Source of the DNA: Bacillus sp. SB49 | GTDB taxonomy: Bacteria > Bacillota > Bacilli > Bacillales > Halobacillaceae | Direction of reading: 5' to 3' | Length of the DNA stretch: 64,000 nucleotides | NCBI RefSeq assembly: GCF_000469135.2 | Contig: NZ_CP048117.1 | Coordinates: 3,695,501-3,759,500 of the forward strand | Shown here: piece by piece, positions 1,118 through 16,528 of the stretch | Layout: the number at the start of each line of letters is the position of its first letter | How positions within the stretch are numbered: position 1 is the first letter of the stretch | Program-made: the position numbers and the translations under genes | Notes under the pieces: model-generated | The model's input: the letters and a program-made list of their open reading frames with translations, nothing else | What the model was told of the DNA's origin: nothing | Database searches by the model: none

Positions 1118-3429
1118 TAATCTTCCACCTTCTCAAATGCAAATAATCCCGTAAATTGCTTTTCCAAGCTAAACAAATCTTTTTCCCCATGATAATGAAT
1201 AAGAAGATCCGAATTTTTACTTTTCGAGATTAACTGATCCATAAATGTTATAAAACTCAGCCCGTCTTCATAATCCTTTTTGTTAGGTCGATATCCATCG
1301 GATACCTTGGAGAGTAACTGAAATAATGGATAGTCTATTTCTAGGCAAAGGTCATTAGATGGCATACTCCCAACGAATCTCAAGGAAATAGTTGTGCTGA
1401 AAGACTCAAATTCTTCGTGTGTAATTTGTGCTTTTGAAGTATCTAGCAATGGTCTATATTCGAGTTTTTGAGCCACTCTATAAGATTCACTCAAGTTGTT
1501 TATATATATATATCCTCGCTTAGGTGAACCTTTCCAAGAAAAAATAACATTCCTAATTTTTTCATAGATTTCTGTGATGATTTTTTTGTCACCGCGATTA
1601 TATCCATACAGAAAGCGAATATACTGCTTCATATATTGGTTATCTAATTCCTCTTGTAAGATAGGATCAGTAAGATAGCCAGCGCGCAGAAAGCACTTTG
1701 TTAATGATTGGAACACTTCGTCTTCAAGTGAGTTCTCACTTTCTTGAAGCAATTCGATAATTGGATTAAAGATTTTTTTGTAACTCTTCTCACCTATATT
1801 TTCATGAACTACTTTTTTGAAATTATTAGTGCTGTAAATACTATTTATAACTTTATCTAAAGTTTTTGACCTTAAATGTATTGGGTCATACTTATAAAAG
1901 CGGTCAATTAATTCACTTTTGCCTCTGTTACTAAAGATAAGGGAAGGCAAAGAGTACTCTATGCGCTCAAACTCTGTCATATTCTCAATACGGATATCTT
2001 CTAAATCTGTATTTGATGGAATTAAAATATCAGCAAGGAAATTTAAAAATGATCTAGTAGAAATAACTACTTTATCCTCTAAGATCATAGAACAAAGAAG
2101 CTTATTTAAGATTCTTTGCGTTTGCTCATTAGATAGTAGTTCATAATTTAAATGAACAGCAGTATAAACATTCTTTTTAAGATCTGATTGAAATGCTTGG
2201 TAAAAAGGATTACTTTTACTTACTTCCGTAATCTTATTCATTATTTGGTCAAAATATTGCGAAAAAGCCTTCGTTTCTTGTAATTTGAATGCTTGATAAT
2301 CTGAAAAGTTAATAATGGATAAACAGTCTTCGCTATATACCTCCGTAACCTCTTCAGAGAACAAACCACTATCTTTAATAAAACCCTCTAACTTTGAAAA
2401 AGTGTGCGAAGAATGTTCGTAGCTAATAAAGTTATGTAGCACTCCTAAATTAATCGCCAGTATTATTTTTTCGTTTCCTTCTTCGTAATGTTCATCACTA
2501 AAACCTGCAAGTTTATCTGTTAGTGTTTCTAAACTGCTTTTTTCTGGGGAATCACTTTCCGTAGCATCATTGATTATAGTGAAATCCTTAATTAGTTCAG
2601 ACTTATTTTCCGTTAAGTAAGAGAGCAAGTGTGACTTACCATCTCCTACACTTCCCGAGAGTAAGACGAGTTTCTTAGTCTCACCTTTAGCATTTTCGAG
2701 TTCCTTTTCTAAGTTAAACTGAATATTTCTCTCTACATGCATATAATTCTTAAACTTGGAAAAACGCCCTACATTCTCTAGCGCTTCCTGCGAAGAAGCC
2801 TTTAACCTATTTAGCTCTCGTATTAAATAACTTTCGTTCTCATCTAAGTCTTCAGAAATCTCAAAAGTAATTTCGCTTTCTTCTTCGTAAGTCTCCATAC
2901 CTTCTTGTGGACGAGCTTCTGGTATAAGATTACCCTCCGTGAATTTACTAATATGCTGTTTGATCAAGTCTTGTATATGTTCCTCACTTAAACTTTGGGC
3001 TGGTTTTGGTTCTTCGTATTTCGGCATTTCAAAATCAGCAGATCCGTAAACCTCTTTATACCAACCGGCTAACTTAAAAACTTTCTTATGTACTTTTAGA
3101 GATGCAATCAGTGAGTGGTCTCGAGTATCATGTGCCGCCTTATTCCCATGAAGTCGTAAAAATTCTAAGTCTTCTTGTAACTTCTTAGAGAATACCCCTT
3201 CTCTATATAATTCTTTCAACATATCATAAAGTTTCGGACAAGCTCGTTCATCCTTTACATCTTTTTCAATTATATATATTTCTTTTAATAGAGTCTCTGT
3301 GAATTTTCTTCCCTGAAATACAGCGGAAGTAGCATCAACGTAGACAAGGTCATCCACCTTTTGGGCTATTTTGTACAAGTTCTCGCTAAAATCTTCTAAA
3401 AAAGAGCAAAATGCACCTTGTTGTTGCAT
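1117..3429 (-). CDS. dptF: DNA phosphorothioation-dependent restriction protein DptF, with DUF4145-like N-terminus
   Basis: This 770-aa P-loop protein belongs to the restriction arm of the Dnd system, which attacks DNA lacking the phosphorothioate mark. A Walker A loop GSVGDGKSH lies at residues 259-267, preceded by hydrophobic LVLL and followed by a large alpha-helical region. The first 120 residues carry a different pattern (LEFLRLHGNKAAHD near 88-101, basic and helical). It resembles the DUF4145/HEPN-like domain found at the N-terminus of restriction subunits and appears fused to the DptF ATPase. The start is an ATG with GGAGG nine bases upstream. It is divergent from dndB across 169 bases and coupled to dptG. 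Recognition is by the P-loop form and context, and the N-terminal domain name is tentative. Confidence 0.82.
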   Translation of the reverse strand: MQQQGAFCSFLEDFSENLYKIAQKVDDLVYVDATSAVFQGRKFTETLLKEIYIIEKDVKDERACPKLYDMLKELYREGVFSKKLQEDLEFLRLHGNKAAHDTRDHSLIASLKVHKKVFKLAGWYKEVYGSADFEMPKYEEPKPAQSLSEEHIQDLIKQHISKFTEGNLIPEARPQEGMETYEEESEITFEISEDLDENESYLIRELNRLKASSQEALENVGRFSKFKNYMHVERNIQFNLEKELENAKGETKKLVLLSGSVGDGKSHLLSYLTENKSELIKDFTIINDATESDSPEKSSLETLTDKLAGFSDEHYEEGNEKIILAINLGVLHNFISYEHSSHTFSKLEGFIKDSGLFSEEVTEVYSEDCLSIINFSDYQAFKLQETKAFSQYFDQIMNKITEVSKSNPFYQAFQSDLKKNVYTAVHLNYELLSNEQTQRILNKLLCSMILEDKVVISTRSFLNFLADILIPSNTDLEDIRIENMTEFERIEYSLPSLIFSNRGKSELIDRFYKYDPIHLRSKTLDKVINSIYSTNNFKKVVHENIGEKSYKKIFNPIIELLQESENSLEDEVFQSLTKCFLRAGYLTDPILQEELDNQYMKQYIRFLYGYNRGDKKIITEIYEKIRNVIFSWKGSPKRGYIYINNLSESYRVAQKLEYRPLLDTSKAQITHEEFESFSTTISLRFVGSMPSNDLCLEIDYPLFQLLSKVSDGYRPNKKDYEDGLSFITFMDQLISKSKNSDLLIHYHGEKDLFSLEKQFTGLFAFEKVED

Positions 3430-3560: not shown

Positions 3561-3598
3561 ATAATCATGAAACTACGTACGTAATCAGGAGGATGGTC

Positions 3599-4696
3599 AT
3601 GGATTTTGGTTTTAGTTACAACTTCCCTGCTATAAAAGGGGTGCAAGCTGGACAAGAGTATTATATTGCCATGTGCCCGTTGAGAGTGATACCAAAGATT
3701 TTCTTGTTTGATGAGGAAGAAATACCACCAGATTACCGTGCACAAAGGATTATTAATAAAAACCGCATTCCCGAAATGACCAACTATATTGTTAATAATA
3801 AGGATGATTATGTATTTTCTTCACTTACTGCGTCGATTGATGGAGATGTGGAGTTCCACTCTATTTCAAGTCAACCCTCTCTCAATGATATAGGCATGCT
3901 CACCATTTCATTAGACTCTCGATTCTTAATTAATGATGGGCAGCATAGAAGAGCAGCAATCGAAGAAGCTTTAAAGATAAATCCGGAACTTGGTAGTGAA
4001 ACGATCTCTGTAGTATTCCTAATAGATTCTGGCTTGAAAAAATCGCAGCAGATATTTTCAGATCTAAATCGTCATGCGGTGAATACTACTTCTTCTTTAG
4101 GAATTTTGTATGATCATCGCGACCAATTGGCGAACGCTACAAGAAAAGTAATAGAAAATAATACATTTCTAAAGAGATATACTGATCGAGAAAGAGTTTC
4201 CCTATCAAAAAACTCACCAAAAATAATTGCACTGAATCATATTTTCAATACTAATTTAAAACTTCTCGGAGTGTCTAAAGGGCAAAACATTAACAAAGAA
4301 GATGAGGAATTCTTGATTGATTTTTGGAATACATTAACCGACTCTATTTCAGAGTGGAAGCAAGTTCTAAACAGGGAGTTAACACCTAAAGAATTGCGGA
4401 TAAATTTCATAGTTGGGCACGGTGTATTCGTTGAGGCTCTAGGATATATAGGAAAAGAATTACGTGAGACACATCCACAACATTGGAAAAAGATTATAAA
4501 ATCTTTGGATAAGATTGATTGGTCAAGAACCAACACAATCCACTGGCAAGGAAGAGCTATTAATCACAATGGACGGGTCCAAAAGACAACGAACACCGTC
4601 CGATTAACCGCTATACAAATTAAAAAACAATTGGGTCTTTCATTAAACAAACAGGAAGAATTAATAGAAGACCAATTTATGAAAGGAACATCATAA
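3599..4696 (+). CDS. dndB: DNA sulfur modification protein DndB
   Basis: DndB is the regulatory member of the phosphorothioation operon. In Streptomyces it represses dnd transcription and tunes the level of modification. The DndB/DGQHR signature is visible as INDGQHRRAAIEEA around residues 111-124, and the family length (about 365 aa) fits. An ATG at 3593 also lies in frame but touches the AGGAGG at 3587-3592. The ATG at 3599 gives a normal six-base spacing and is preferred. It is the first gene of the operon, directly behind a TTGTGA/TATAAT promoter. Its stop is adjacent to the dndC start. Codon use is AT-rich like the rest of the island. Confidence 0.93.
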   Translation: MDFGFSYNFPAIKGVQAGQEYYIAMCPLRVIPKIFLFDEEEIPPDYRAQRIINKNRIPEMTNYIVNNKDDYVFSSLTASIDGDVEFHSISSQPSLNDIGMLTISLDSRFLINDGQHRRAAIEEALKINPELGSETISVVFLIDSGLKKSQQIFSDLNRHAVNTTSSLGILYDHRDQLANATRKVIENNTFLKRYTDRERVSLSKNSPKIIALNHIFNTNLKLLGVSKGQNINKEDEEFLIDFWNTLTDSISEWKQVLNRELTPKELRINFIVGHGVFVEALGYIGKELRETHPQHWKKIIKSLDKIDWSRTNTIHWQGRAINHNGRVQKTTNTVRLTAIQIKKQLGLSLNKQEELIEDQFMKGTS

Positions 4697-6262
4697 ATGA
4701 AAGGCATAATTTCACAAGCATTTGACGAAAAGACATCCATAACAGACGCGGCTAAAGAGGAGGTAAAACAAACATACTTAGGAGATGATCGTCCCTGGGT
4801 TATTGGATATAGTGGAGGAAAAGACTCCACTGTTGTAGTTCAATTAGTCTTTGAAGCCCTTTGTGAGCTTCCAAAGGATCAACTAACGAAAAAAATTCAT
4901 GTCATATCATCAGATACTTTAGTAGAAACTCCTTTAATCATTCAATCTATCAACACCACACTTCGTCGTATTGAAGAAAAAGCTTTGGAGTTAAAACTTC
5001 CTATTGAAACACATAAAGTTAAACCGATGGTTGATCAGTCATTTTGGGTAAATATAATCGGTAAAGGTTACCCATCTCCGAACCAACAATTTAGATGGTG
5101 TACCGATCGCCTGAAGATTGATCCTGCCAACCAATTTATAAAAGATAAAGTAGATTCTTTTGGGGAAGTTATTATGGTATTAGGTGTTCGTGAGTCTGAA
5201 AGTGCAACTCGTGCCAACGTTATAAAGTCTCACTCTGTCGAGGGTAAAACACTTATGCGACACTCGACCTTATCTAATGCCTACGTATATGCTCCAATTC
5301 GAAAGTTTGATATTGATGATGTATGGAATTATCTCCTTACATTTGATTCTCCATGGGGAGATGATAATTATGAGCTTCATCGTTTATATAAAGAATCTGG
5401 AAGTGGCGAGTGTCCTTTAGTAGTAGATAAAACTGTTAAAGAATCCGCAGGGTCTTGTGGTAACTCAAGGTTCGGATGTTGGGTTTGTACAGTAGTAAAT
5501 GAAGACAAAGCTCTAAGTGGGTTTATAGATAGTGGTCACGATTGGATGAAACCTTTACTAGACTTCCGGAACTGGCTTGCTTCAATTAGAGATGACAGGA
5601 CAAGAAGAATGAAATATCGAATGGATGGACAGGTATACTTTAGGCCAATGCAGATTAAAGAGATTGACGATGTCTCCTATGTTCTAATACCTAAAAAAGG
5701 TAGCCGTCGCAAAGATCTAATTAATTTAGAAGAATTCGAAATTATTGAGAAATCTGAGCTAAAACAATATTTAAACAGCCATAATATTGACCTGTCTTCT
5801 TCTGATGATCCAATGGTGTTAATTAAAGATGAGAAAGGCAACTTATGCCGCCTTGGGCTTGGTCCTTTCACACTCGAGGCTAGAAAGGAAATCCTTCAAA
5901 AACTATTAGAAGTGCAACACAATCTTACACACCCTTTTGATGAAGAATATGACTTGATTAAGGAAGAAGAGCTAAAAGAAATTAGAAAGATCTGGTTCAG
6001 TCACGGGGATTTCGTTGACAGCTTGCCTACTATTTATGAAGAGGTTTTCAATGAAAATCTTAATTGGGAAAAAGATGAACGTTTATTCTTCGATCAAGAT
6101 GAACTTCACCATCTTGAAATGTTATGTCAAGAACAGGATATAGATTTTAAGCTTGTAAAAAAACTGTTATTGATTGAAAAAGATTATACAGGTTTTAAAG
6201 TACGCCGGGGATTAATGGATCAATTATCCTCAGCACTACAACAAGACTACTTACACTTATAA
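4697..6262 (+). CDS. dndC: DNA sulfur modification protein DndC (PAPS reductase/ATP pyrophosphatase family)
   Basis: DndC is an iron-sulfur, ATP pyrophosphatase-like enzyme. With DndD and DndE it replaces a non-bridging phosphate oxygen of DNA with sulfur delivered from the DndA cysteine desulfurase. The PP-loop GYSGGKDSTVV is at residues 37-47. A cysteine set (CPLVVDK at about 238, then CGNSRFGCWVC at about 254-264) can hold the 4Fe-4S cluster. Length is 521 aa. The ATG follows the dndB TAA with no gap, and its ribosome site AAAGGAAC lies within the dndB 3' end, so the two genes are translated together. All key residues appear intact. Confidence 0.96.
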   Translation: MKGIISQAFDEKTSITDAAKEEVKQTYLGDDRPWVIGYSGGKDSTVVVQLVFEALCELPKDQLTKKIHVISSDTLVETPLIIQSINTTLRRIEEKALELKLPIETHKVKPMVDQSFWVNIIGKGYPSPNQQFRWCTDRLKIDPANQFIKDKVDSFGEVIMVLGVRESESATRANVIKSHSVEGKTLMRHSTLSNAYVYAPIRKFDIDDVWNYLLTFDSPWGDDNYELHRLYKESGSGECPLVVDKTVKESAGSCGNSRFGCWVCTVVNEDKALSGFIDSGHDWMKPLLDFRNWLASIRDDRTRRMKYRMDGQVYFRPMQIKEIDDVSYVLIPKKGSRRKDLINLEEFEIIEKSELKQYLNSHNIDLSSSDDPMVLIKDEKGNLCRLGLGPFTLEARKEILQKLLEVQHNLTHPFDEEYDLIKEEELKEIRKIWFSHGDFVDSLPTIYEEVFNENLNWEKDERLFFDQDELHHLEMLCQEQDIDFKLVKKLLLIEKDYTGFKVRRGLMDQLSSALQQDYLHL

Positions 6263-6292
6263 TGTGCAACCATTGAAAGGAACATTCACTTT

Positions 6293-8299
6293 ATGATCTT
6301 AAAAAAGATTATTATAAACAACATCGGCCCATATGAAGGGCTAAACTCATTTAACTTCCAAACAAAGGAAGATGCCAGCACTGTTCTAATTGGCGGAAAG
6401 AATGGTGCAGGTAAAACTACTTTTCTTAACAGTGTGCGCATCGCTTTGTATGGACCGTTAGCTTTTGGCTACAAAACTGTCTCAAATGAATATATAAAGA
6501 AAATACGAGCTCTTTTAAACTCTCAGGCCGTAAAGCAAAACCAAAATGATTTAAAAGAATACCAAAATGAATTTAAAGTACGCATCGATTTTTCAATGAT
6601 AGAAAATTTTCAAAGGGTACATGCATCTATAATCCGCTATTGGGATATCACTGGTACCTTTAGAGAGAATGTTAGTGTAATCAAAAACGGTGTAGAAGTA
6701 AATGAGGTAGAGAAAGATCAATTTTTCACTCACCTACGCACAAGTTTCCCCCCTTCCTTGTTAGAACTTTGTTTCTTTGACGGGGAAGAAATTTCTCATT
6801 TAACAGATGAGAATAATTTATCTAATTATCTTAAGGTACTATCGTCTAAAATCTTCAATTTAGACCTTTTCCAAAACTTAGAAAAAGATTTAGGTTTGTA
6901 TTTAGATCAAAGCTCCAAATCTGAGGAGCAAGCTCGACTAGAAAACGATGAAAAACTAGCAGAAGAAGATTTGCGTCAACTACTTAAGCATATTAGTGAG
7001 CTGAATGAGGAACTAGAAAACACTCAAAACGAATTAGAGCTGAATAAGCAAAAATACAGTGCTGTAAAAAATGATTTTTCAGTACATGGTGGAGTGGCTT
7101 ATGACGAGAGAGAGAAAATACAGGACAAACTTAACACTATTGAAGGTCAAAGGAAGCACCTCTTAGAGAAAACCAAAGAATTTATAGCAAATGAGCTTCC
7201 GTTTTTCATTGCCTTCCCCACTGTGTACGATTTAGTAGAGCAATTAAAGAATGAAGAAGAATATCACGTTTCCAATATTCTGAGAGGAAAAATAAATCAG
7301 CTTCCAATGGAGTCCATGTTAGAAAATCTTAACTTGAACTTATCGAACGACGATGCACAAAATTTAAAAGAAACACTTTCTTCCCATCTGGTTAATACAA
7401 ACAGTACTCAAATAATACACAATGCTTCAAATACCGAAGCTAACCAAGTGTACACGTTGCTCGAAGAAACAAATTTAATTCGCTTGAATGAAATAATAGA
7501 AATCATTAGACAAAATCACAGTCTACTAAAAGAGGCACAAAGGTTAAGAAAAATTCTCAAGGACAATCATGAATCAAATGAATTCAATAAAATGATAGAA
7601 AGCATGGAAGACTACAGTAGAAGGATTGTAGATCTTGAAGATAAGATATCGTCCTTAAACAGTCAGAAAGAAGAAGCGAGTATTAACGTAGACAATAGAA
7701 ATAAAGAGTACGAAAGAATTAAGCAGCAGCTATACAAGATACGTAAAACTAAATCATCCTTTGCTGAGTCCCAAAAAATTATTAATATCAGCCGAAAATT
7801 CCAACAACAGCAACTTAGAAATAAATTAAAAGATATTGAATACTTCTCTTCAAAAATGTTTAAAGATCTTTTACGCAAGAAATCATTTATAAAACACATC
7901 ATGATTGACCCAGAGTCTTTTGAACTAACAATTATTGACCACAATAATGACTCTATAAATAAAGATATACTTTCTGCAGGAGAAAAGGAATTACTGGCCC
8001 TTTCCATAATATGGGGTACTATAAAATCTTCTAAAAAAGAGCTACCACTCATCCTTGATACGCTTTTAGGAAGACTTGATAATGAACATAAGCTTGCCAT
8101 TATTTCTAAGCTTCTACCACGCCTTGGCGTGCAAAACATTGTTCTTTCTACCGATTCAGAAATTGATTACAAATTATACTCAAATCTTCGTAAAAATGTA
8201 GCTAATGAATATACACTAAATTACGACAACAACAACAAGAAGACTAATATTGAAAGACACTTCTTTAATTTTGAGAAAGAAAAGGTGGAGCAAGAATGA
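6293..8299 (+). CDS. dndD: DNA sulfur modification protein DndD (SMC-like ATPase)
   Basis: This is a 668-aa SMC/Rad50-type ATPase of the phosphorothioation complex. It is thought to open or nick DNA for sulfur insertion with DndC and DndE. Walker A GGKNGAGKTTF is at residues 34-44, followed by the family motif CFFDGEEI near 162-169 and a long coiled-coil centre. The ABC signature LSAGEKELLAL is near 561 and Walker B LPLILDTLLGRLD near 583-595. The start has AAAGGAAC upstream and sits 30 bases after dndC. The stop overlaps the dndE start (ATGA). It should not be confused with the second, clearly different DndD-like protein at 14157-16166. Confidence 0.95.
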   Translation: MILKKIIINNIGPYEGLNSFNFQTKEDASTVLIGGKNGAGKTTFLNSVRIALYGPLAFGYKTVSNEYIKKIRALLNSQAVKQNQNDLKEYQNEFKVRIDFSMIENFQRVHASIIRYWDITGTFRENVSVIKNGVEVNEVEKDQFFTHLRTSFPPSLLELCFFDGEEISHLTDENNLSNYLKVLSSKIFNLDLFQNLEKDLGLYLDQSSKSEEQARLENDEKLAEEDLRQLLKHISELNEELENTQNELELNKQKYSAVKNDFSVHGGVAYDEREKIQDKLNTIEGQRKHLLEKTKEFIANELPFFIAFPTVYDLVEQLKNEEEYHVSNILRGKINQLPMESMLENLNLNLSNDDAQNLKETLSSHLVNTNSTQIIHNASNTEANQVYTLLEETNLIRLNEIIEIIRQNHSLLKEAQRLRKILKDNHESNEFNKMIESMEDYSRRIVDLEDKISSLNSQKEEASINVDNRNKEYERIKQQLYKIRKTKSSFAESQKIINISRKFQQQQLRNKLKDIEYFSSKMFKDLLRKKSFIKHIMIDPESFELTIIDHNNDSINKDILSAGEKELLALSIIWGTIKSSKKELPLILDTLLGRLDNEHKLAIISKLLPRLGVQNIVLSTDSEIDYKLYSNLRKNVANEYTLNYDNNNKKTNIERHFFNFEKEKVEQE

Positions 8300-8688
8300 A
8301 CTTTCGTCTGAAAACAACGGTTGAAACCGCAGAATTACTCAAAGGCCTTCAAAATTCCACCGGATTGACGCCAAATATTTTAGCTAGACTTGCAATCTCA
8401 CTATCTGTATTAATCCCTGAAGAACCCGAGTTGGTCTCTTCCGATAGCAAAGGGTTAGAATTTAACCGGAATACCTTAACAGGTGACCGTGATTACTTTT
8501 ATAAAGCAATAATTCGGCAAAATGCAGTGAGAGAGATTCATGAAGATGAGTACTTCCCCACTATGTTTAATGCACATTTGTCTAGAGGAACAAAGCTTTT
8601 AAACGAAGAATATAAGCACTCTGGTAATTATGATAAACTGCTTAAAAATTTACTTAAGCTTGCGGAAGAAAACATAAAGGGGGCGTAG
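8296..8688 (+). CDS. dndE: DNA sulfur modification protein DndE
   Basis: DndE is a small essential subunit of the phosphorothioation machinery. Family members form tetramers that bind nicked double-stranded DNA. The 130-aa product begins MNFRLKTTVETAELLKGLQ and is basic and mainly helical, with no signal or membrane segment. The ATG overlaps the dndD stop by four bases and has GGTGGAG upstream, so it is translationally coupled. It is followed directly by dndA. A second protein of similar size and pattern is encoded at 16166-16528. Confidence 0.9.
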   Translation: MNFRLKTTVETAELLKGLQNSTGLTPNILARLAISLSVLIPEEPELVSSDSKGLEFNRNTLTGDRDYFYKAIIRQNAVREIHEDEYFPTMFNAHLSRGTKLLNEEYKHSGNYDKLLKNLLKLAEENIKGA

Positions 8689-8691
8689 GTG

Positions 8692-9810
8692 ATGCTCTAT
8701 CTGGATAACAGCGCTACTACACATATTCTTCCAGAAGTAAAAGAAGCTATGGAAACGTTCCTAACATCTGAGTATGGAAACCCTTCAGGTAAATATTACA
8801 ATTTAGCAATAAATGCAGAATCAGCAATTAGTCAAGCTAGAGAGCATGTTTCTAAGCTTATTAATTCATCGAGTAAAGAGGTCATTTTTACTAGTGGTGC
8901 TACAGAGAGTAATAATATGGTCATTAAAGGTGTTGCTGATTATTATTCAGATAAGGGAAAACACATAATTACATCAAAAGCAGAACATAATGCAGTACTA
9001 GATGTTTGCGTGTTTCTTGAAGAAAAAGGCTTTGAAGTTACTTATTTAGACGTTGATCAATATGGAAGAGTGAATCCTTTAGAATTTCAAGCTTCCATTA
9101 GAAAAGATACAATCCTAGCAACTATTATGTGGGGTAATAATGAACTTGGCTCACTTAATGATATTAATTATCTATCAAAAATCTGTGCGGAAAACAATAT
9201 TCTATTTCACACCGACGCTACCCAAGTTATGGGTAAAGTAGAAATTAATTGGAATGATTTAGATAGTGTGAGCTTCTTGTCTTGTTCTGCACACAAAATG
9301 CACGGACCAAAAGGAGTCGGGGCGTTGGTCATTAGAGCAGATCAATATGGAAGACTAATCCCTTTTACTCCTCTTCTTCATGGTGGTGGGCAAGAGAATG
9401 GGATTAGAAGCGGAACCTACTCTGTCCATAATATTGTCGGCTTTGGCGTAGCAGCAAAAATAGCCAAAAATAATTTACAGAAACATATGAAACATCTATG
9501 GAATCTAGAAGAGAAACTGCGAAAAATACTGATGGATCAGTTTGCTGATAACATTGCATTTAATTCAGATGATGAAAATAAGATTCCTGGTGTCTTGAAT
9601 GTTAGATTTAAAGGGTTAAATAACGAAGTTCTACTAAAGAAACTGGCACCTGTAATTGCTGCCTCTTCGGGATCCGCTTGTAGTAGCGCTCATCCTTCTC
9701 ATGTTTTACAGGCCACGGGGTTAAATTTAAAGGAGGTTAGAGAGTCTATACGATTTTCCTTCTCCCCTTACACTAGCATAGAAGAAGTTGATATTTTCAC
9801 GGAATTATAA
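8692..9810 (+). CDS. dndA: Cysteine desulfurase DndA (IscS/NifS family)
   Basis: This PLP-dependent cysteine desulfurase supplies the sulfur for DNA phosphorothioation by forming a persulfide and passing it to DndC. Residues visible include the N-terminal LDNSATT, the PLP lysine in SAHKMHGPKG near residue 202, and the persulfide cysteine in SSGSACSSAHPSH near residue 330. Length is about 372 aa. GTG at 8689 and ATG at 8692 are both possible starts; GGGGG about eight bases upstream favours the ATG. It is the last gene of the dnd operon, with dndE one base away, and a terminator follows. Many dnd operons lack dndA and borrow a housekeeping IscS, but here it is encoded. Confidence 0.95.
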   Translation: MLYLDNSATTHILPEVKEAMETFLTSEYGNPSGKYYNLAINAESAISQAREHVSKLINSSSKEVIFTSGATESNNMVIKGVADYYSDKGKHIITSKAEHNAVLDVCVFLEEKGFEVTYLDVDQYGRVNPLEFQASIRKDTILATIMWGNNELGSLNDINYLSKICAENNILFHTDATQVMGKVEINWNDLDSVSFLSCSAHKMHGPKGVGALVIRADQYGRLIPFTPLLHGGGQENGIRSGTYSVHNIVGFGVAAKIAKNNLQKHMKHLWNLEEKLRKILMDQFADNIAFNSDDENKIPGVLNVRFKGLNNEVLLKKLAPVIAASSGSACSSAHPSHVLQATGLNLKEVRESIRFSFSPYTSIEEVDIFTEL

Positions 9811-9840: not shown

Positions 9841-10305
9841 TTACAAGTTCAAATCTTTTAATAAACGATTTTTATTTAGCTCTTCACAATCACTAATCGA
9901 TTCAAATTCTTGAATATAATCAATGACTATTTGTAACGCATTTTTTTCATCTTGCATAATTAATTCTTGTAACTTTTTTATCCCAGCGCATGCATACTCT
10001 TCAGCTATTGTTATTTTACTGTGAAACTGTTCTTCTGATCCATTCATTGCGAACGAAAGATCCCCTGTATCTAGCACAGCAATTAAATTAATCAAAGGTT
10101 CGTCCGTACGCTCTTTAAATACTTGCCATGGAATTGGCTCTGCTGATTCATTAAAAGAAATACGTTCACTTTCTAAGAATCCTATAACCAAAGACAGCAT
10201 AAATATATCCTTATACGTGTCAAAAATACCAAATTCTTTTTTATTAGTTAATCTTAAATATAGCTCTTCCTGATCTTTTGGCCTTCTTATTCTCCGATTG
10301 TACAT
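9841..10305 (-). CDS. DNA phosphorothioation-associated protein 4 family
   Basis: This acidic, helical 154-aa protein starts MYNRRIRRPKDQEEL. The early basic RRPK patch, the central ESERISFNESAEPIPWQVF and a conserved-looking LINLIAVLDTG region match my memory of the small family called DNA phosphorothioation-associated protein 4. A GTG further upstream (10317) overlaps the preceding stop. The ATG at 10305, with GGAGGT ten bases upstream, is preferred. It is the last gene of a minus-strand set with an SMC-like ATPase and a helicase. Function is unknown. In haloarchaea, a homologue reportedly belongs to the Pbe effector module that blocks viral replication, but I cannot confirm orthology. Confidence 0.68.
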   Translation of the reverse strand: MYNRRIRRPKDQEELYLRLTNKKEFGIFDTYKDIFMLSLVIGFLESERISFNESAEPIPWQVFKERTDEPLINLIAVLDTGDLSFAMNGSEEQFHSKITIAEEYACAGIKKLQELIMQDEKNALQIVIDYIQEFESISDCEELNKNRLLKDLNL

Positions 10306-10310
10306 ACCTT

Positions 10311-12284
10311 TTACCACCTCCGTATTTCTGTATATTCATGTGAATCATTCTTTCGAGGATCATGATAATGTAATTCATAGTGATTACTTACATAAGGAGA
10401 CAAGGACCTTTCTACTTCGCCCTTCCACTGAGAAGTGGAGACTATTACTATTATTTGTTCAGAGAGCTTCGGGATCCCTTCAGCGACTCTTTCTCTATGA
10501 TTAGAATCTAAAGCTCCAAAAGGAGAATCCATTACTAATGGATAAATACCACCTTCATTTATTACTTTCGTTGCTTTTCTTTGATAATGCTTCCGCGCAA
10601 TATCAACAATTGCTCCAATAAAAGATAAACTAGTAATTTGCCTTTCCCCTTGAGATAATGGTACCTTTTCTCCATAATGATTCTTAACCTCTAGTTTAAA
10701 GTCATCCGTTAAAGATATTTTGTATCCTTTGCGTAAGAAATTACTGTACACCCCTTCTATCGTTTCCTGAAGATCTGTTTTCACTTCTTTTTCTTTTAAT
10801 ACGTATATTTTCTGCATAACTTCTTTAAGTTTGTTACTGGTGTTTAGTCTTCTTTTTGCTAATTGAGCTTTGTCTTCTATCTGCTGTTGCTTGCTAATTT
10901 GTTTCGCTACTTCTCTTCTTCTCTTATCAAGATCCTCTAAAGTATGTTCTATAACTCCGATTCTCTTCTGATATTTAATACTTTTCTCCTGGTGTTCCCT
11001 TCGATTATTCTCAAGAGCTGATACATTCTCTACACTACGATTACTGAGGTCATGGCTTATTTCTTCTAATCTGTTTCCAATATCTCTAACTAATTCTTTT
11101 AATTGATACAGTTCTCTCTCATGTGTGGATACATCTTCCATAAACCACTCTTTTTTATCTAAAATTAGAGCTATTTGAGAATATAAATTATTCTTTAGCA
11201 TCGTTTGGTTTTGCGGCCCCAATTGCCCCAACAAAGATTCCAAATGTTTTTTTTGTTGATTACATAAGTCCTGTCCACAAATACAGACATTTTTATTCAG
11301 AATTGCTTCTATAAGATCAGTAGATAAATTTGGATAAACGATCCCCTCTGGTTCACCAACACTTTTAAATTTTTCTTTTGCCTTCTCTGAAAGAATGCTG
11401 CTCATCGCCAAGTAGCCATATTTACTTACTAATCTACTGAGAGCATCTTCTTTGTGATCCATTTTTTGTTTTGTTTCTTTTAAATTCGCTTCCAGTTCTT
11501 TTCTTTCCTTATACCTTTCTTCAATACCCCTCACTAAGTTCAACTGTCCGTCTATATCTGCGACTTGTCTTGTAAGTATTTTTATATTACTTTTTAATTG
11601 TGCTTCTTCTTCTATAAGATCTGTCTTTTCTGACTCTAAGGCCTCTTCCGTCTCTAGTAATTCCTTTGTTTTCTCATCCGCTAAGCTAATCCATTCTTTC
11701 TGGAATTCTTTTCCTACATCCTCTATGTGTTTAATTCCTCTATCAATAATTTCTAGGTCCATTACTATTTTTACAGCATCTTGTATTTCACCATTATCCT
11801 CATGTCGGGATAAACTGTCTATTCGTTCCCCATCAAAAAAGAAATAGTTTCTTAAATTCTCAGGCATAACTCTATTAATTTCTACTGAAGGGTTACTAAG
11901 CTTTTTCAACCGGCCCTCTTCATAAAATTGAAGCAGTACATCACTTTCCTCATTTCTTATTTCTCCAGTATTCTTCCTACCTGTCTTGCTTCTTTTAAGT
12001 ATGTAGGTGATTTCTTTAGATATAAACTCCATTTCTACAAACATAGCTATAGTATCTCCACTTTCGGTGGTCTCAACAGCCTGTGAGTTCATTAATTGGT
12101 TAGAGTCAGGTAAGTCCGTTACCCCGTATAAGCACCAGTTAAAGGCATTAAGCAGCGCTGTTTTTCCCGATCCGTTCTCTCCATGAATGACAGTTACATT
12201 TTTATCGTTTGAATTGGAAAACTCAATGGTTTGGGTTCCATAGTATTGACGAAAATTATGCAAAGTAATTTTATTAATAATCAC
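10311..12284 (-). CDS. SMC/Rad50-like AAA ATPase of the phosphorothioation-linked module
   Basis: This 657-aa ATPase has Rad50/DndD architecture. Walker A GENGSGKTALLNAF is at residues 35-48, FFFDGERID is near 152, and a long coiled coil is interrupted by a cysteine pair NVCICGQDLC near 330-340, reminiscent of a zinc hook. The signature PLSQGERQI is near 540 and Walker B LVMDSPFGALD near 588. The start is GTG, placed immediately after the TAA of the 55-aa gene, and the stop runs into the next gene, so four genes form one transcript. It probably acts on DNA ends or recruits the helicase. It differs from DndD at 6293 and from the DndD-like protein at 14157, so the island holds three such ATPases. 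Confidence 0.85.
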   Translation of the reverse strand: MIINKITLHNFRQYYGTQTIEFSNSNDKNVTVIHGENGSGKTALLNAFNWCLYGVTDLPDSNQLMNSQAVETTESGDTIAMFVEMEFISKEITYILKRSKTGRKNTGEIRNEESDVLLQFYEEGRLKKLSNPSVEINRVMPENLRNYFFFDGERIDSLSRHEDNGEIQDAVKIVMDLEIIDRGIKHIEDVGKEFQKEWISLADEKTKELLETEEALESEKTDLIEEEAQLKSNIKILTRQVADIDGQLNLVRGIEERYKERKELEANLKETKQKMDHKEDALSRLVSKYGYLAMSSILSEKAKEKFKSVGEPEGIVYPNLSTDLIEAILNKNVCICGQDLCNQQKKHLESLLGQLGPQNQTMLKNNLYSQIALILDKKEWFMEDVSTHERELYQLKELVRDIGNRLEEISHDLSNRSVENVSALENNRREHQEKSIKYQKRIGVIEHTLEDLDKRRREVAKQISKQQQIEDKAQLAKRRLNTSNKLKEVMQKIYVLKEKEVKTDLQETIEGVYSNFLRKGYKISLTDDFKLEVKNHYGEKVPLSQGERQITSLSFIGAIVDIARKHYQRKATKVINEGGIYPLVMDSPFGALDSNHRERVAEGIPKLSEQIIVIVSTSQWKGEVERSLSPYVSNHYELHYHDPRKNDSHEYTEIRRW

Positions 12285-12452
12285 TTATTTCACACCCTCT
12301 CGGATGAAATTGTATATGTCTTTCTTAATAGAGGTCCCTTGAAGAGACTTTCGATGCAATAAATCTTTTTCAGCCTTAACAATCTTCATAAATATTTCTT
12401 GCTCATTGTTTTCTAACTCATCTAAAATACGATATAAATCATTCTCGTTCAT
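12285..12452 (-). CDS. 55-aa DNA modification system-associated small protein (putative)
   Basis: This short gene lies between the helicase and the ATPase. The ATG at 12452 follows AGGGAG, and the TAA is directly adjacent to the GTG of the ATPase gene. The product is charged and helical, with the pattern KIVKAEKDLL followed by KKDIYNFI. The 62-aa protein at 13966-14154 has a similar layout (KLLKESKK then AEIENLI). Both small proteins precede an SMC-like ATPase gene in the same operon. Short proteins of this style are sometimes annotated as DNA modification system-associated small protein. The function is unknown; an accessory subunit of the neighbouring ATPase or helicase is an inference. Confidence 0.62.
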   Translation of the reverse strand: MNENDLYRILDELENNEQEIFMKIVKAEKDLLHRKSLQGTSIKKDIYNFIREGVK

Positions 12453-12466
12453 GTAATAAACACTCC

Positions 12467-13828
12467 CTATATATCCATTAAATTGAATTCTTTTTTAAGT
12501 TCCCATATAACATCTTCCGCTTCAGGTCCATTAATAGCTAAACTGGAAAATTCTTTAAATCTCAAAAATTCTTTTTTTAACTGCGACCTAACCATATTGT
12601 GGTAATCATCTGAAGCGTCCGAAATTTCTGCTAGATCGGGGGGGACCACAATGAAATCATATATTGTAGCCGCCTTCTTACCGCTATGTTTTCTAAGCAC
12701 TCTTCCACGCCTTTGTACAAACTCCTTAGGGTTACCGGAACTTGCTATCAAATACGCGTATTTAGTTGCAGGGACATCAATCCCTTCATCTAAACACTTG
12801 ATTGCAACTAAAGCCTGCGTGCTACCGGCCTCAAAATTTGAAAGGAGATCATCTCTTTCCAAATTTGTTTCCCTGGATGTAAATCGACTTGCTTTTAGCT
12901 CAAAGTGCTCTCTTAATATCTTTACTACCACATCTACCTGTCTTTCCCCTTCAAATTCTCCATCCCCACAATAAAATAAAGAGTGAGAGTTGACTCCTGT
13001 TTCTTTTAACAGTCGAATGAGCTCATATAATTTATTTTCGGCAGACTGAATAATACGAGCACGTCGTAAAGATAACTTTTCCATCGATTCCTTAGCAGAA
13101 GAATCCTCTTTAGAACGAAAGTACAGTTTCTTAATTTTCTTTGTAAGCTCGACATACTCTTCAGTCTCACGATCATTTAAATGAACTAGCCTTGGATAAT
13201 AATAATATTTAGTTAAAAAACCCATTTCTATAGCTTCTTTTAGGGAAAAGGAAAAGACAACTTCATTTCCAAAGTAGGATAAGAGGTTATCCGTCCCTTC
13301 TATATCTCTCCATCTAGTTGGAGTAGCTGTCAAAGCTAACCTATACTTCACGTGCTGTGGTAAGGACCTATTTAATTTATTTGCGCCGAAGTAATGGGCT
13401 TCATCCACAATTAATAGTGTGTTTTCGTCCATTTTGTTTAATTTTTCTTGAAAAGAAGGCATGGAGAAGGTAGCATTTGTTGTTACAGTCACTACCAAGT
13501 CCGTATAGCCCTTCTTGTAAGCTCTAATGGCGTCATCTAATTGTGCTTGCCATAACTTTGAAGCTTGGTATCCTTTTATGGGTTTCAAGCCGAAGTTTCG
13601 GCACTCATCCATCCATTGGGACGATAACTGAGTAAACGGAGTAACAATTATAATATTAAGTCTTTTCATATCCTGGAATAGATCACTTGCCAATGCCAGT
13701 GCGGTAATTGTCTTACCCGTGCCCGTGGCCATTTCCAGCAAGCCCGTACCTTTATTTTGTCTCCAATTTCTTATTGCCTTCTTTTGATAATCCCTTAGCT
13801 GAATATATTCAGGTAAGTGAAAAGTCAT
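12467..13828 (-). CDS. SF2 DEAD/DEAH helicase, phosphorothioation system restriction-enzyme family
   Basis: This 453-aa superfamily 2 helicase carries the Q-like RDYQKKAI motif, Walker A ATGTGKT at residues 34-40, VDEAHYFG near 139 and TATPTR near 167. The C-terminal motif VI is QRRGRVLRKH. No nuclease domain is visible, so it is a translocase/helicase core rather than a complete HsdR. Its size and context match the family named DNA phosphorothioation system restriction enzyme. A GTG at 13837 is in frame but overlaps GAGAGGG. The ATG at 13828, eight bases from that site, is preferred. It is the first gene of the minus-strand arm and is divergent from the 62-aa gene. Confidence 0.85.
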   Translation of the reverse strand: MTFHLPEYIQLRDYQKKAIRNWRQNKGTGLLEMATGTGKTITALALASDLFQDMKRLNIIIVTPFTQLSSQWMDECRNFGLKPIKGYQASKLWQAQLDDAIRAYKKGYTDLVVTVTTNATFSMPSFQEKLNKMDENTLLIVDEAHYFGANKLNRSLPQHVKYRLALTATPTRWRDIEGTDNLLSYFGNEVVFSFSLKEAIEMGFLTKYYYYPRLVHLNDRETEEYVELTKKIKKLYFRSKEDSSAKESMEKLSLRRARIIQSAENKLYELIRLLKETGVNSHSLFYCGDGEFEGERQVDVVVKILREHFELKASRFTSRETNLERDDLLSNFEAGSTQALVAIKCLDEGIDVPATKYAYLIASSGNPKEFVQRRGRVLRKHSGKKAATIYDFIVVPPDLAEISDASDDYHNMVRSQLKKEFLRFKEFSSLAINGPEAEDVIWELKKEFNLMDI

Positions 13829-13903
13829 GTATAACACCCTCTCTTCCTAACACTATTCTACCAAATCATTATTCAAATTTTTAAGTCAAATTACTATCAC
13901 ACC

Positions 13904-13933
13904 TTGCTTATAAGCAATATTAATTAGTAAAAT
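13904..13933 (+). promoter_or_regulatory. Promoter with palindromic operator for the second DndD/DndE-like operon
   Basis: TTGCTT at 13904-13909 and TAAAAT at 13928-13933 are 18 bases apart, upstream of the 62-aa gene. The -35 hexamer is part of a perfect 14-bp palindrome (TTGCTTATAAGCAA, 13904-13917) in the 137-base gap between two divergent arms. It could bind a dimeric repressor controlling both directions. Confidence 0.5.
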
Positions 13934-13965
13934 GAGAGTAGTTCTGCTAAAAAAGGAGAAAGTAT

Positions 13966-14154
13966 ATGCATTATACTGAAAGATTATTGGTTCATAAATT
14001 AGTGAAAAAACATAATATAAGTTTTGAAATGGTACAAAAACTTCTAAAAGAGTCGAAAAAAAGTTCCTACGAAAATCAAAAAGACTCAAAGAAAATTGCT
14101 GAAATAGAAAACCTTATTACGTTCTATGTAAAGAAAGAAGAAAAGAGTGATTAA
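13966..14154 (+). CDS. 62-aa small protein of the second phosphorothioation-linked arm
   Basis: A 62-aa basic, helical protein begins MHYTERLLVHKLVKKHN. AAGGAGA lies six bases before the ATG, and the gene ends two bases before the DndD-like gene. The C-terminal half (KLLKESKK, then KKIAEIENLI) parallels the 55-aa protein at 12285-12452, so both arms seem to carry one member of a small family. No known domain is evident by eye. Location and spacing argue that it is translated and works with the following ATPase. Confidence 0.65.
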   Translation: MHYTERLLVHKLVKKHNISFEMVQKLLKESKKSSYENQKDSKKIAEIENLITFYVKKEEKSD

Positions 14155-14156
14155 GG

Positions 14157-16166
14157 ATGAGATTTAAAAAAATTGCATTTGAAAATTACAAAACATATTA
14201 TGGAAACCAAGAGATAGACTTATCTCTTTCGAATGACGATCAAGAACATGGGCGAAACATTATATTATTGGGTGGATTAAATGGTGCTGGTAAGACTACT
14301 ATCCTAAAAGCAATTCGATACGCTTTATTTGGAAAAAGAGGGATCACCAAAGAAGAACAAGAGCGGCTGGTAGCTAACACTATTAATAATACATACTTTG
14401 AAGAAGGTGGAAGGGATTGTTCTGTTTCCTTATCTCTTCAAATGGATTCAGGAGAAGAGTGGCGTTTAAAAGTTAAATGGCGCTTTGATTCTCGCAAAAA
14501 AAACACAGGAGAATATAGAGAAATATTTGTAAAAAAATCTCCTGCTTCCTTAGAAAAAAAATTAAATGTTACCGATCTAGCATCATTTAACTACTTCATT
14601 GATCGGATTATTCCATATAATGCTGCGCCATTCTTCATTTTTGACGGAGAAGAAATTAAAGAATTAATTACCAAACAAAGCAGTGCAGAAATGAAAAGAG
14701 CCATTCACCAAATTACTGGATTGGACAGCTACAAACTATTAGTTAGCAATCTAAATACACTAGAGTCTCAATTGTATAAAAAACTTTCTTCTGCTACTAA
14801 TCAAGATACAGTTAATCAAAAACAAAAAGAGCTACAATCATTAGAAAAAGATATTCTGAAATATGAAAAGTATATTAAAAAAACAAAAAAAGAACTACAA
14901 GAGGTCGACGAATCCTTAGCAAAAGTGACAGATGAGAGGAACCAAAAAATATCCAGTAATTCTAAGTCTCGGGAAACACTGGTGAAGAAACAAGCAGAGC
15001 TTGCTACCAAACTAAAGTTAAAGAAAGAAGAATTTGAGACAGTGTATAAAGACAATATTTTATACATTATCTTAAGTGATGAAATTAAGAGCTTAAAGAG
15101 TAGCTTGAAGAAAGAAAATGATGTTAAAAACAAAAAGATCATGAGAGAGAATGCACTAGAACCTTATAATACATTCATAAACAATTTATTAGGAAAAGAT
15201 ATTGATCCTCCATTAACAAAAGAACAACTCAATCAGATCAAGAAGATTGGAGAAAGTGTTTGGTTGAAAGAAGACAACCAATCATCCGAAGTGAAGGCAC
15301 CTGAAATCCACGACCTATCTACAAGAGATCAGTCCATATTAAATAGCTTACCTATAAAGGATAGACACCTTCTTTATAAAATTAAAGAGGACTTATCTAA
15401 ATTAATAGAAAAACACCAGCTAATGGAGCAAGAGATCCTTTCTGCGCCCGAATCTGTAAATATAGAAAAAGAAAGCAAACAAATTGCTTATTTACAAGAG
15501 AAACGAGGGGTCTTAAACGATAATATCCGCAAGGCATTTAAGAAGTTAACACCGATGAAAGAGCAATTAACAAATGTCAGAAATCAATTAACACGCCTTA
15601 CATCTTCAGATGTATCATCTGAGGAATTAACTAAGAAATTAGAATATACTACTTACACCAAAGAGTTTGCAGAAGAATTCTTAAATGAAGCAACTCAACT
15701 TAAAGCCACAATGATTAGAGATGAATTTGAAGCTATGCTCAAAAAACTCTTCAGAAAGACAGATGAATTCGATGACGTGGTTTTCGATATAAACAATTAT
15801 TCTATAAGACTTTATAATGAGCTAGGACAAGAAATCAGCATTTTAGATCGTTCTGCTGGCGAAATGCAAATGATTTCATCTGCTCTTATTTGGGCTCTCA
15901 TTAAGGCTTCAGACTTAGATCTTCCTATGGTAATCGATACGCCTTTGGGTCGCTTAGATAGTGTCCACAGAAACAATTTAATTGAAAACTATTATAAAGA
16001 GCTTTCGGATCAAGTAATTATTCTATCGACAGATACAGAAATTACAAAAGAGTACGTTGATATGATGAAAAACCATTCCGCAAAGCAATATCTTTTAGAC
16101 TATAATGAAGAACATAAATATACATTAATTCGTGACGGATATTTTGATATAGTGGAGGTAAATTGA
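14157..16166 (+). CDS. Second DndD-like SMC ATPase
   Basis: This 669-aa ATPase has the same layout as DndD. Walker A LGGLNGAGKTT lies near residues 38-48, FFIFDGEEI near 160-168, and a long lysine-rich coiled coil follows. The signature RSAGEMQM is near 564 and Walker B LPMVIDTPLGRLD near 585-600. It would often be annotated simply as DndD, yet the genuine DndD is at 6293 and the two differ widely outside the motifs. It follows the 62-aa gene by two bases, and its TGA overlaps the start of a DndE-like gene (TGATG). This reproduces the dndD-dndE order of the modification operon. A role in an effector or sensing complex is inferred. Confidence 0.86.
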   Translation: MRFKKIAFENYKTYYGNQEIDLSLSNDDQEHGRNIILLGGLNGAGKTTILKAIRYALFGKRGITKEEQERLVANTINNTYFEEGGRDCSVSLSLQMDSGEEWRLKVKWRFDSRKKNTGEYREIFVKKSPASLEKKLNVTDLASFNYFIDRIIPYNAAPFFIFDGEEIKELITKQSSAEMKRAIHQITGLDSYKLLVSNLNTLESQLYKKLSSATNQDTVNQKQKELQSLEKDILKYEKYIKKTKKELQEVDESLAKVTDERNQKISSNSKSRETLVKKQAELATKLKLKKEEFETVYKDNILYIILSDEIKSLKSSLKKENDVKNKKIMRENALEPYNTFINNLLGKDIDPPLTKEQLNQIKKIGESVWLKEDNQSSEVKAPEIHDLSTRDQSILNSLPIKDRHLLYKIKEDLSKLIEKHQLMEQEILSAPESVNIEKESKQIAYLQEKRGVLNDNIRKAFKKLTPMKEQLTNVRNQLTRLTSSDVSSEELTKKLEYTTYTKEFAEEFLNEATQLKATMIRDEFEAMLKKLFRKTDEFDDVVFDINNYSIRLYNELGQEISILDRSAGEMQMISSALIWALIKASDLDLPMVIDTPLGRLDSVHRNNLIENYYKELSDQVIILSTDTEITKEYVDMMKNHSAKQYLLDYNEEHKYTLIRDGYFDIVEVN

Positions 16167-16528
16167 TGGCAAATAAAAAAATGAACTTATCCAAAACAGG
16201 AAAAGAACTTCTAGAAAATGCTATCAATTCATTAGATTTGGATAGGCCTTTAGTAATAAAAATAGCATTAGCTAAAGGGCTAGCCTACAATGGTGAATTT
16301 GAATTTAATACTGATTCGACACCAAAATGGCCAATACCAGAAGGAATTATTAAGAATAACGAGTACTTAATGTTTAAACACATCATCATTAACAACCTTC
16401 AAAAAACTATAGAAGACCAAGAGGTTTCTACCTACATGTTACATTACTTGGAAAAAGGATTACGTGTTATTGATTCTGTAATTAAAGAGAAAAATAGCCT
16501 AGAAGACAGTAGGTTTGTTATTTTATAA
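16166..16528 (+). CDS. Second DndE-like protein
   Basis: The 120-aa basic, helical product resembles DndE in order and spacing of features. An N-terminal KTGKELLENAINSLDL matches the position of the DndE segment TAELLKGLQNSTGL. A central NEYLMFKHIIINN matches DYFYKAIIRQN, and a late HYLEKGLRVI matches AHLSRGTKLL. The ATG at 16166 overlaps the upstream stop and has GGAGG seven bases before it; a TTG at 16163 is less likely. It ends the operon just before a strong terminator. The paralogy call is from eye alignment of short stretches, and no key catalytic residue is known for the family. Confidence 0.66.
   Translation: MANKKMNLSKTGKELLENAINSLDLDRPLVIKIALAKGLAYNGEFEFNTDSTPKWPIPEGIIKNNEYLMFKHIIINNLQKTIEDQEVSTYMLHYLEKGLRVIDSVIKEKNSLEDSRFVIL

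Follow-up and report, generated by a model that had tools for sequence, protein, structure and literature searches.

We examined a 64,000-nucleotide stretch of the genome of Bacillus sp. SB49 (contig NZ_CP048117.1, positions 3,695,501 to 3,759,500), referred to here as the window; the source genome is a single contig of 3.77 Mb. Positions 9841–16528 hold seven intact open reading frames (ORFs), tightly packed in two divergent sets and adjoining the modification genes dndBCDEA and the genes of DptF and DptG. Such a seven-gene block had been described in a first-pass annotation of the sequence, and all of its ORFs were found in place. They make up two separable parts of a phosphorothioate (PT) defence island of 15 genes: a PbeABCD module, and a second set encoding a small protein (SP), DndD and DndE. 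The left set is transcribed in the order PbeA, PbeB, PbeC, PbeD; from left to right, the gaps between its genes are −7, 0 and 14 bp, and those between the genes on the right 2 and −4 bp. DptG extends across the left edge of the window and, with DptH, lies on stretch L001 (Table 1).

The island recurs with the same gene order and orientation in three further genomes, G108, G400 and G420 (Thalassobacillus devorans), the window genome being G000. Its proteins are 53–91% identical between the window and these relatives, and all seven genes recur, including the two small ORFs. In the island genes, 42–62% of third codon positions differ, against 9–40% of first and 2–23% of second positions, and third-position change exceeds the other two in every island gene and genome pair. 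The recurrence of seven genes in order, together with change biased towards third positions, is more than chance would produce. The locus is real, conserved and not decayed. The short forms of PbeA and DptH described below are both present in all three.

Table 1. Features of the phosphorothioate defence island in the window and on the adjoining stretch L001
Feature	Position	Strand	Description
PbeD (dnd_assoc_4, TIGR04062)	9841..10317	-	158 aa; DndE fold; partner of PbeC
PbeC, CxC-type ABC ATPase	10311..12284	-	657 aa; CIC motif at residues 334–336; Walker A, signature and CxC motifs
PbeB, small protein	12285..12452	-	55 aa; same place and near-equal length in relatives
PbeA, SF2 helicase without N-terminal HKD nuclease	12467..13837	-	456 aa from GTG; 453 aa from ATG at 13828
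Divergent intergenic region between PbeA and second set	13838..13965		128 bp
SP2, small protein of second set	13966..14154	+	62 aa; weak PF20306 Sp-DndD match; conserved in relatives
DndD2, second DndD-type ABC ATPase	14157..16166	+	669 aa; TIGR03185 above cut-off; ATPase motifs
DndE2, DndE homologue	16163..16528	+	121 aa; profile comparison and fold
dndB, dndC, dndD, dndE, dndA modification operon	3593..9810	+	HMM matches; DndA: class V aminotransferase at the dndA position
DptF	1117..3429	-	TIGR03238, 299.6 bits
DptG	1..1117 (5' part); whole gene L001:9705-11117	-	TIGR03236, 208.7 bits
Motorless DptH	L001:5756-9757, just outside the window		Follows DptG; REase motif present, no Walker A

A nuclease-less Pbe module beside a motorless DptH

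The left set is PbeABCD, also known as the CxC ABC-ATPase system, in a nuclease-less variant. A CxC ATPase stands beside a DndE-fold protein, the superfamily 2 (SF2) helicase PbeA is present and PbeB lies between helicase and ATPase, while the HKD endoDNase fused to PbeA is absent. The earlier comparison of this set with Pbe was borne out by the PADLOC models for PbeC (898 bits) and PbeA (540 bits). With the curated DndD model TIGR03185, PbeC reached only 174.5 bits. The CxC motif was present in 74 of 83 PbeC-labelled proteins and in 1 of 35 labelled DndD, with the automatic DndD2 and PbeC labels being uncertain in distant loci (CxC in 5 of 17 DndD2-labelled proteins, absent from 9 of the 83 labelled PbeC).

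The product initially named associated protein 4 does belong to a dnd-associated family (TIGR04062, 80.5 bits, cut-off 74.25), and can be identified as PbeD (P0001). Structure comparison revealed a DndE fold, a resemblance that appears only at this level, as comparison of sequence profiles gave no match to DndE. Sequence searches for solved structures of PbeC, PbeD and DptH found none. PbeB is 82–91% identical in the three relatives, similar to DndC (85–89%) and above PbeC (55–64%). It thus ranks with the best-conserved island proteins, contrary to the 'rapidly evolving' SP of PMC10853773.

PbeA carries the helicase motifs TGTGKT, DEAH, TATP and QRRGR, and its match to the PADLOC profile starts only at position 247 of 682. 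Just 37 residues precede helicase motif I; neither an HxK motif nor a match to the HKD profile was found in the protein, which measures 456 aa against about 690 aa for the HKD-fused form. Its placement in a helicase family that travels with dnd is upheld by the PADLOC model, whereas TIGR04095 scored 562 bits, under its cut-off of 600.

DptF (TIGR03238, 299.6 bits), DptG (TIGR03236, 208.7 bits) and DptH (TIGR03237, 848.8 bits) all score above their cut-offs, the NCBIfam DptH model itself spanning only the part before the ATPase. Both a Dpt-type and a Pbe-like arm, as had been proposed, stand beside one modification operon, with DptFGH complete and DptH outside the window. DptH has 1333 aa against the usual length of about 1700 aa and stops after the restriction endonuclease (REase) domain. 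No Walker A motif and no Pfam HerA match of a C-terminal HerA/FtsK motor were detected in it, and the alignment shows a clean C-terminal end. The REase motif SDD...EVK (PD-(D/E)XK) is retained, and Walker A of DptF is intact.

Short DptHs also occur in the protein database. Among 35 relatives of the window DptH, 10 are short (1308–1326 aa, its own record included) and 25 measure 1714–2016 aa; for 7 of the 10, again including its own, a probably corresponding record also appears in the list of HKD-less PbeA proteins. Of 28 proteins found with the Exiguobacterium DptH, 3 were short (1350 aa) and 25 measured 1692–1790 aa.

Free-standing replacements of the lost domains in the neighbourhood were considered and rejected. 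The HerA profile, which was derived from the motors of five Bacilli DptHs and misses at least one other type of ATPase (that of G369 and G033), matched only motor-bearing DptHs in the stretches read. DUF87 gave no match in the whole genomes G000 and G400, and weak matches elsewhere in the genomes G420, G108, G784 and G785. HKD-only ORFs were present in L019, L039, L056 and L065 and in none of the window-lineage stretches, the HKD search being confined to stretches rather than whole genomes.

Co-occurrence of the two domain losses

We examined eleven genomes that encode PbeA as well as DptF, all found through PbeA. In all six with a motorless DptH, PbeA lacks the HKD domain: the window, G108, G400, G420, Bacillus aerolatus (G784) and Exiguobacterium (G785). 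A motor-bearing DptH is combined with a PbeA carrying the HKD domain in G056, G125, G176 and G223. The association across the 11 genomes gave a Fisher p of 0.015. In the PbeA of G125 (L104), whose genome encodes a motor-bearing DptFGH, the HKD domain is present with the catalytic H and K replaced, and it is probably a dead nuclease, judging from these residues.

An order-wide draw recovered DptF in 34 of 397 genomes at E 0.001, 29 of them above the cut-off. Among these 29, 27 encode a motor-bearing DptH with Walker A (G119 is broken, G033 is split with the motor piece present, and G369 and G033 have a different ATPase type), and two, G000 and G108, a motorless one. PbeA was found at E 1e-60 in 6 of the 29, and the only two HKD-less PbeA proteins belong to the two motorless genomes (Fisher p 0.0025, uncorrected, with the window itself one of the two). 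These searches scored the best four candidates per genome for PbeA and the best three for DptF, so misses are possible. A DptH search across the phylum contributed a single further genome, a motor-bearing one (2 of 398 genomes matched, counting that of the window).

PbeA without an intact HKD site was found in 8 of 11 genomes with DptF versus 4 of 27 without it (Fisher p 0.0011, uncorrected), or in 7 of 11 when G125 is scored as having the domain despite its mutations (p 0.0052). Not part of this 38-genome test are L027, which lies at a contig edge, and L065, whose HKD is encoded by its own ORF. The genome-wide searches for DptF and DndC covered 40 hand-picked, non-random genomes, comprising 14 of the 16 PbeA-search matches (all but G010 and G085) and 26 of 80 loci, which were selected so as to include those that carry Dpt, a duplicate DndDE set or a short PbeA.

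DndFGH has been described as nicking DNA during translocation, with its ATPase repressed by PT marks, and as damaging Salmonella cells devoid of PT (PMC11662687). Its translocating action means that the loss of the motor should matter, and a DptFGH without the HerA/FtsK motor would need another one. The island offers a single candidate that combines SF2 translocase motifs with the lack of a nuclease, namely PbeA. We tentatively propose that the SF2 motor of PbeA supplies translocation for the motorless DptH nuclease, a coupling of which the joint domain losses are suggestive only. In such a scheme, PT marks would be written by DndCDE, as their families indicate. PbeC–PbeD, in which an ABC ATPase is joined by a DNA binder of the DndE fold, would scan the DNA and load PbeA on unmarked DNA; PbeA would then travel along it and deliver the DptFGH nuclease. 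Restriction would thus depend on both arms, with Pbe providing the motor and Dpt the cut. The full form of the idea is more doubtful, that of a composite machine in which the DptFGH nuclease would be driven by the PbeA motor, itself recruited by PbeC–PbeD, and neither arm would cut phage DNA alone.

Almost as likely as this split machine are two independent arms. Here, the nuclease-less Pbe would halt phage replication by clamping or translocation, the motorless DptFGH would act as a local, non-translocating nickase, and the two losses would have coincided in one old lineage. Several observations weigh against the split machine, and among them the haloarchaeal Pbe, HKD loss without DptF and the few origins of motorless DptH also favour independent arms. 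The haloarchaeal Pbe of Haloterrigena protects without DndFGH and without DNA cleavage (PMC6459918). HKD-less PbeA occurs in four genomes without DptF, and Salipaludibacillus (L032/G786), the sole exception among the 11, has an HKD-less PbeA with a motor-bearing DptH, so that a partnership does not follow from the loss of HKD by itself. The motorless DptHs of the window lineage form one clade (11 rows in the first DptH tree, 10 in the second), as the lineage also does in the PbeA tree. Exiguobacterium may represent a second origin (approximately unbiased test, p 0.48), which gives motorless DptH one or two evolutionary origins. An independent-contrast test of PbeA nuclease against DptF yielded only 3–4 independent pairs on well-supported branches, too few to reach significance. 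The motorless DptHs P0135, P0136 and P0166–P0168 lie outside the neighbourhood reading, and the role of the second DndDE set within the split-motor proposal is only weakly inferred. Independent arms, in turn, have against them the published dependence of DndFGH on translocation (PMC11662687), the motor kept in all 27 remaining DptH loci from the order-wide draw and the six genomes examined in which motorless DptH never occurs without PbeA.

The first DptH tree was built without G119 and G033, being broken and split, and the second without nine further rows and with eleven new ones. The PbeA tree excludes L016 and L020 as duplicates, and its no-HKD labels for L027, L056, L061 and L065 may stem from contig edges or from split or fused frames.

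The second SP–DndD–DndE set

The ATPase of the right set exceeds the curated DndD cut-off (TIGR03185, 348 bits, cut-off 245.85), and no CxC motif was found in it; for these two reasons it is called DndD2. The PADLOC PbeC-set model gave 958 bits, versus 355 bits for the best PADLOC DndD model. The DndD-like label of the first-pass annotation stands at the curated cut-off. For the 121-aa DndE2, the DndE-like label is supported by hhalign profile comparison and by the fold, and no family match was obtained by hidden Markov model (HMM) searches. SP2 shows a sub-threshold resemblance to Sp-DndD (PF20306, E 8.3e-4, 19.9 bits against a gathering threshold of 27.2). As a DndD-type ATPase paired with a DndE homologue, DndD2–DndE2 is a DndD–DndE (clade-1) pair.

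The pair is present in all 11 genomes with PbeA and DptF, DndD2 being cut by the stretch edge in G785 and separated from DndE2 by a gap in G223. SP2 was recognised in six of the 11 (the window, G108, G400, G420, G784 and G056). DndD2–DndE2 also lies beside DptH in nine loci where Pbe is absent (L132–L140), with the small protein recognised in five, and in L018 and L019 it accompanies Pbe in the absence of DptF. The pair was not seen in 14 other DptFGH loci (L141–L154, 14–20 kb read), two of which carry dndBCDEA. This distribution, with and without Pbe, indicates that the second set is linked to the dnd locus and not to Pbe. Its divergent layout with PbeA is found in 6 of the 11 genomes (the window, G108, G400, G420, G786 and G056; L128, L129), and its position or orientation relative to PbeA differs in G784, G125, G176, G223 and G785 (L125, L126, L127, L107 and L130, respectively).

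The dndBCDEA operon holds the only DndC match of the window genome, and exactly one DndC was found in each of the 13 searched genomes that carry the second set. The idea that this set works without PT in some hosts was abandoned, since DndC was found after all in G056, further along the same contig, and in G223, on another contig. The island is rearranged or split in these two genomes (L106 and L129 in G056, L107 and L131 in G223), with dndBC lying beyond DptF in the former and on the other contig in the latter.

With a single DndC in the island, the second SP–DndD–DndE set must share DndC and DndA; either one DndC serves both DndDE pairs, or the second pair is non-modifying. On admittedly weak grounds, the most likely role of the second DndD–DndE pair is to equip the shared DndC with another set of target contacts, or else to mark another class of sites. 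A stricter version makes the set a second specificity unit for one DndC, yielding two PT motifs and leaving the seven genes otherwise ordinary. The constant single DndC and the recurrence of the set beside DptH, with and without Pbe, fit this version, which is nevertheless unlikely, as PT motif choice has been assigned mainly to a DndC loop (PMC12193691). That loop reads NQQ in the window and in most Bacilli where the pattern was found, regardless of Pbe. As a guess, NQQ is nearest to the NQT of GATC-type systems.

Intergenic region and neighbouring genes

The spacer between the two sets measures 128 bp from the GTG start of PbeA and 137 bp from the ATG at 13828, the latter matching the length given in the first-pass annotation. 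The shared promoter region placed there by the annotation gained no support from a promoter and terminator scan, which returned no more matches than shuffled sequence; only a few short A+T-rich stretches of the region are conserved among relatives. A perfect palindrome, TACGTACGTA, occurs once in the window, at 3574–3583, just upstream of the dndB ribosome site. It also precedes dndB in four relatives, with two copies in Bacillus aerolatus, and is a probable autoregulatory operator. A DndB operator shared with the Pbe region was rejected, as the palindrome is absent from 13838–13965.

To the left of the window, L001:3266-4249 encodes a WYL-domain regulator, 64–71% identical to a gene adjoining the island in G108 and G400, where the counterpart lies at the opposite island end. 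Also to the left, near DptH, a PvuRts1I-like modification-dependent endonuclease with an SRA domain is encoded at L001:2192-3076. Within the window, 33285–37461 holds a two-gene McrBC-like system (an MrcB_N AAA protein and a DUF2357 PD-(D/E)XK protein), whose 63–66% identical relatives directly adjoin the island in G108. In three Pbe-less DptFGH loci, SF2 helicases of the PADLOC type IV restriction kind lie at most 2.3 kb from DptH (L149:14075-17236, L142:13319-16207 and L147:16069-18909), and one of the three matched the HKD profile.

Discussion

Two further readings of the locus fare worse than those weighed above. The motorless DptFGH could have become a sensor, regulator or inhibitor that is no longer a restriction enzyme, leaving Pbe as the sole effector. 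The loss of the translocase domain would agree with this, but the REase motif and Walker A of DptF are kept, the full-length genes are 60–65% identical across genera with third-position-biased change, and PbeA would then have no nuclease at all, which makes the reading improbable. Least probable is the first-pass view of all seven genes as one two-arm effector module with one divergent promoter; for all the divergent layout in 6 of the 11 genomes, it is disfavoured by the nine Pbe-less loci with DndD2–DndE2, and the placement of the pair relative to PbeA varies.

The gene layout itself is already in print, and the combination of Pbe, DptFGH and a modification operon is less unusual than had been supposed. 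Pbe–Dnd co-occurrence of this kind is reported for 25 bacterial strains with pbeAC, dndFGH and PT genes (PMC6459918). PMC10853773 equates PbeABCD with the CxC system and lists 39 taxa in which CxC–DndE pairs are flanked by duplicated DndBDE/DndDE clusters, with DndFGH co-occurring in many genomes. In the window and its three relatives, the CxC pair is likewise flanked by two DndDE sets, one with and one without DndB. Both DndDE sets are on the forward strand with Pbe between them on the reverse; the excerpted parts of PMC10853773 give opposite directions for the duplication in general and none for the 39 taxa.

The closest described relative in gene content is DndCDEA-PbeABCD of Haloterrigena jeotgali A29 (PMC6459918), with a helicase, a small protein, an ABC ATPase and a small DndE-like protein beside dnd genes. 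The present system differs in that PbeA lacks HKD/PLD, DptFGH and a second DndDE set adjoin, and the host is bacterial. With the CxC ABC-ATPase–DndE systems it shares the CxC motif, the SP, the cognate DndE, the DndB-less second DndDE pair and the co-occurrence of DndFGH. In those systems, HKD is fused to the helicase in the vast majority (PMC10853773), whereas here the helicase is HKD-less and PbeB is strongly conserved among four genomes. The likeness to DndFGH/DptFGH lies in the three core proteins above NCBIfam cut-offs and in the retained REase motif. The DndH of PMC10853773 has a mean length of 1700 and the HerA/FtsK ATPase as part of a constant architecture, whereas DptH here stops before that ATPase. 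A literature search over titles, abstract openings and parts of PMC10853773, with subscription papers and supplements outside its range, found neither a DptH without motor nor a PbeA without HKD mentioned. Within the range of that search, the pairing of these two forms at one locus is a previously undescribed variation on the published layout.

Whether PbeABCD and DndFGH cooperate in one cell is treated as open in print, and, in the parts consulted, PMC6459918 and PMC10853773 disagree on whether Pbe cuts DNA. A nuclease-less Pbe helicase and a motorless Dpt nuclease in one lineage offer a natural test of coupling. If both arms are required for restriction, the two systems are coupled; if each arm works alone, DptFGH needs no translocase and Pbe no nuclease. 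Either outcome would change a current model.

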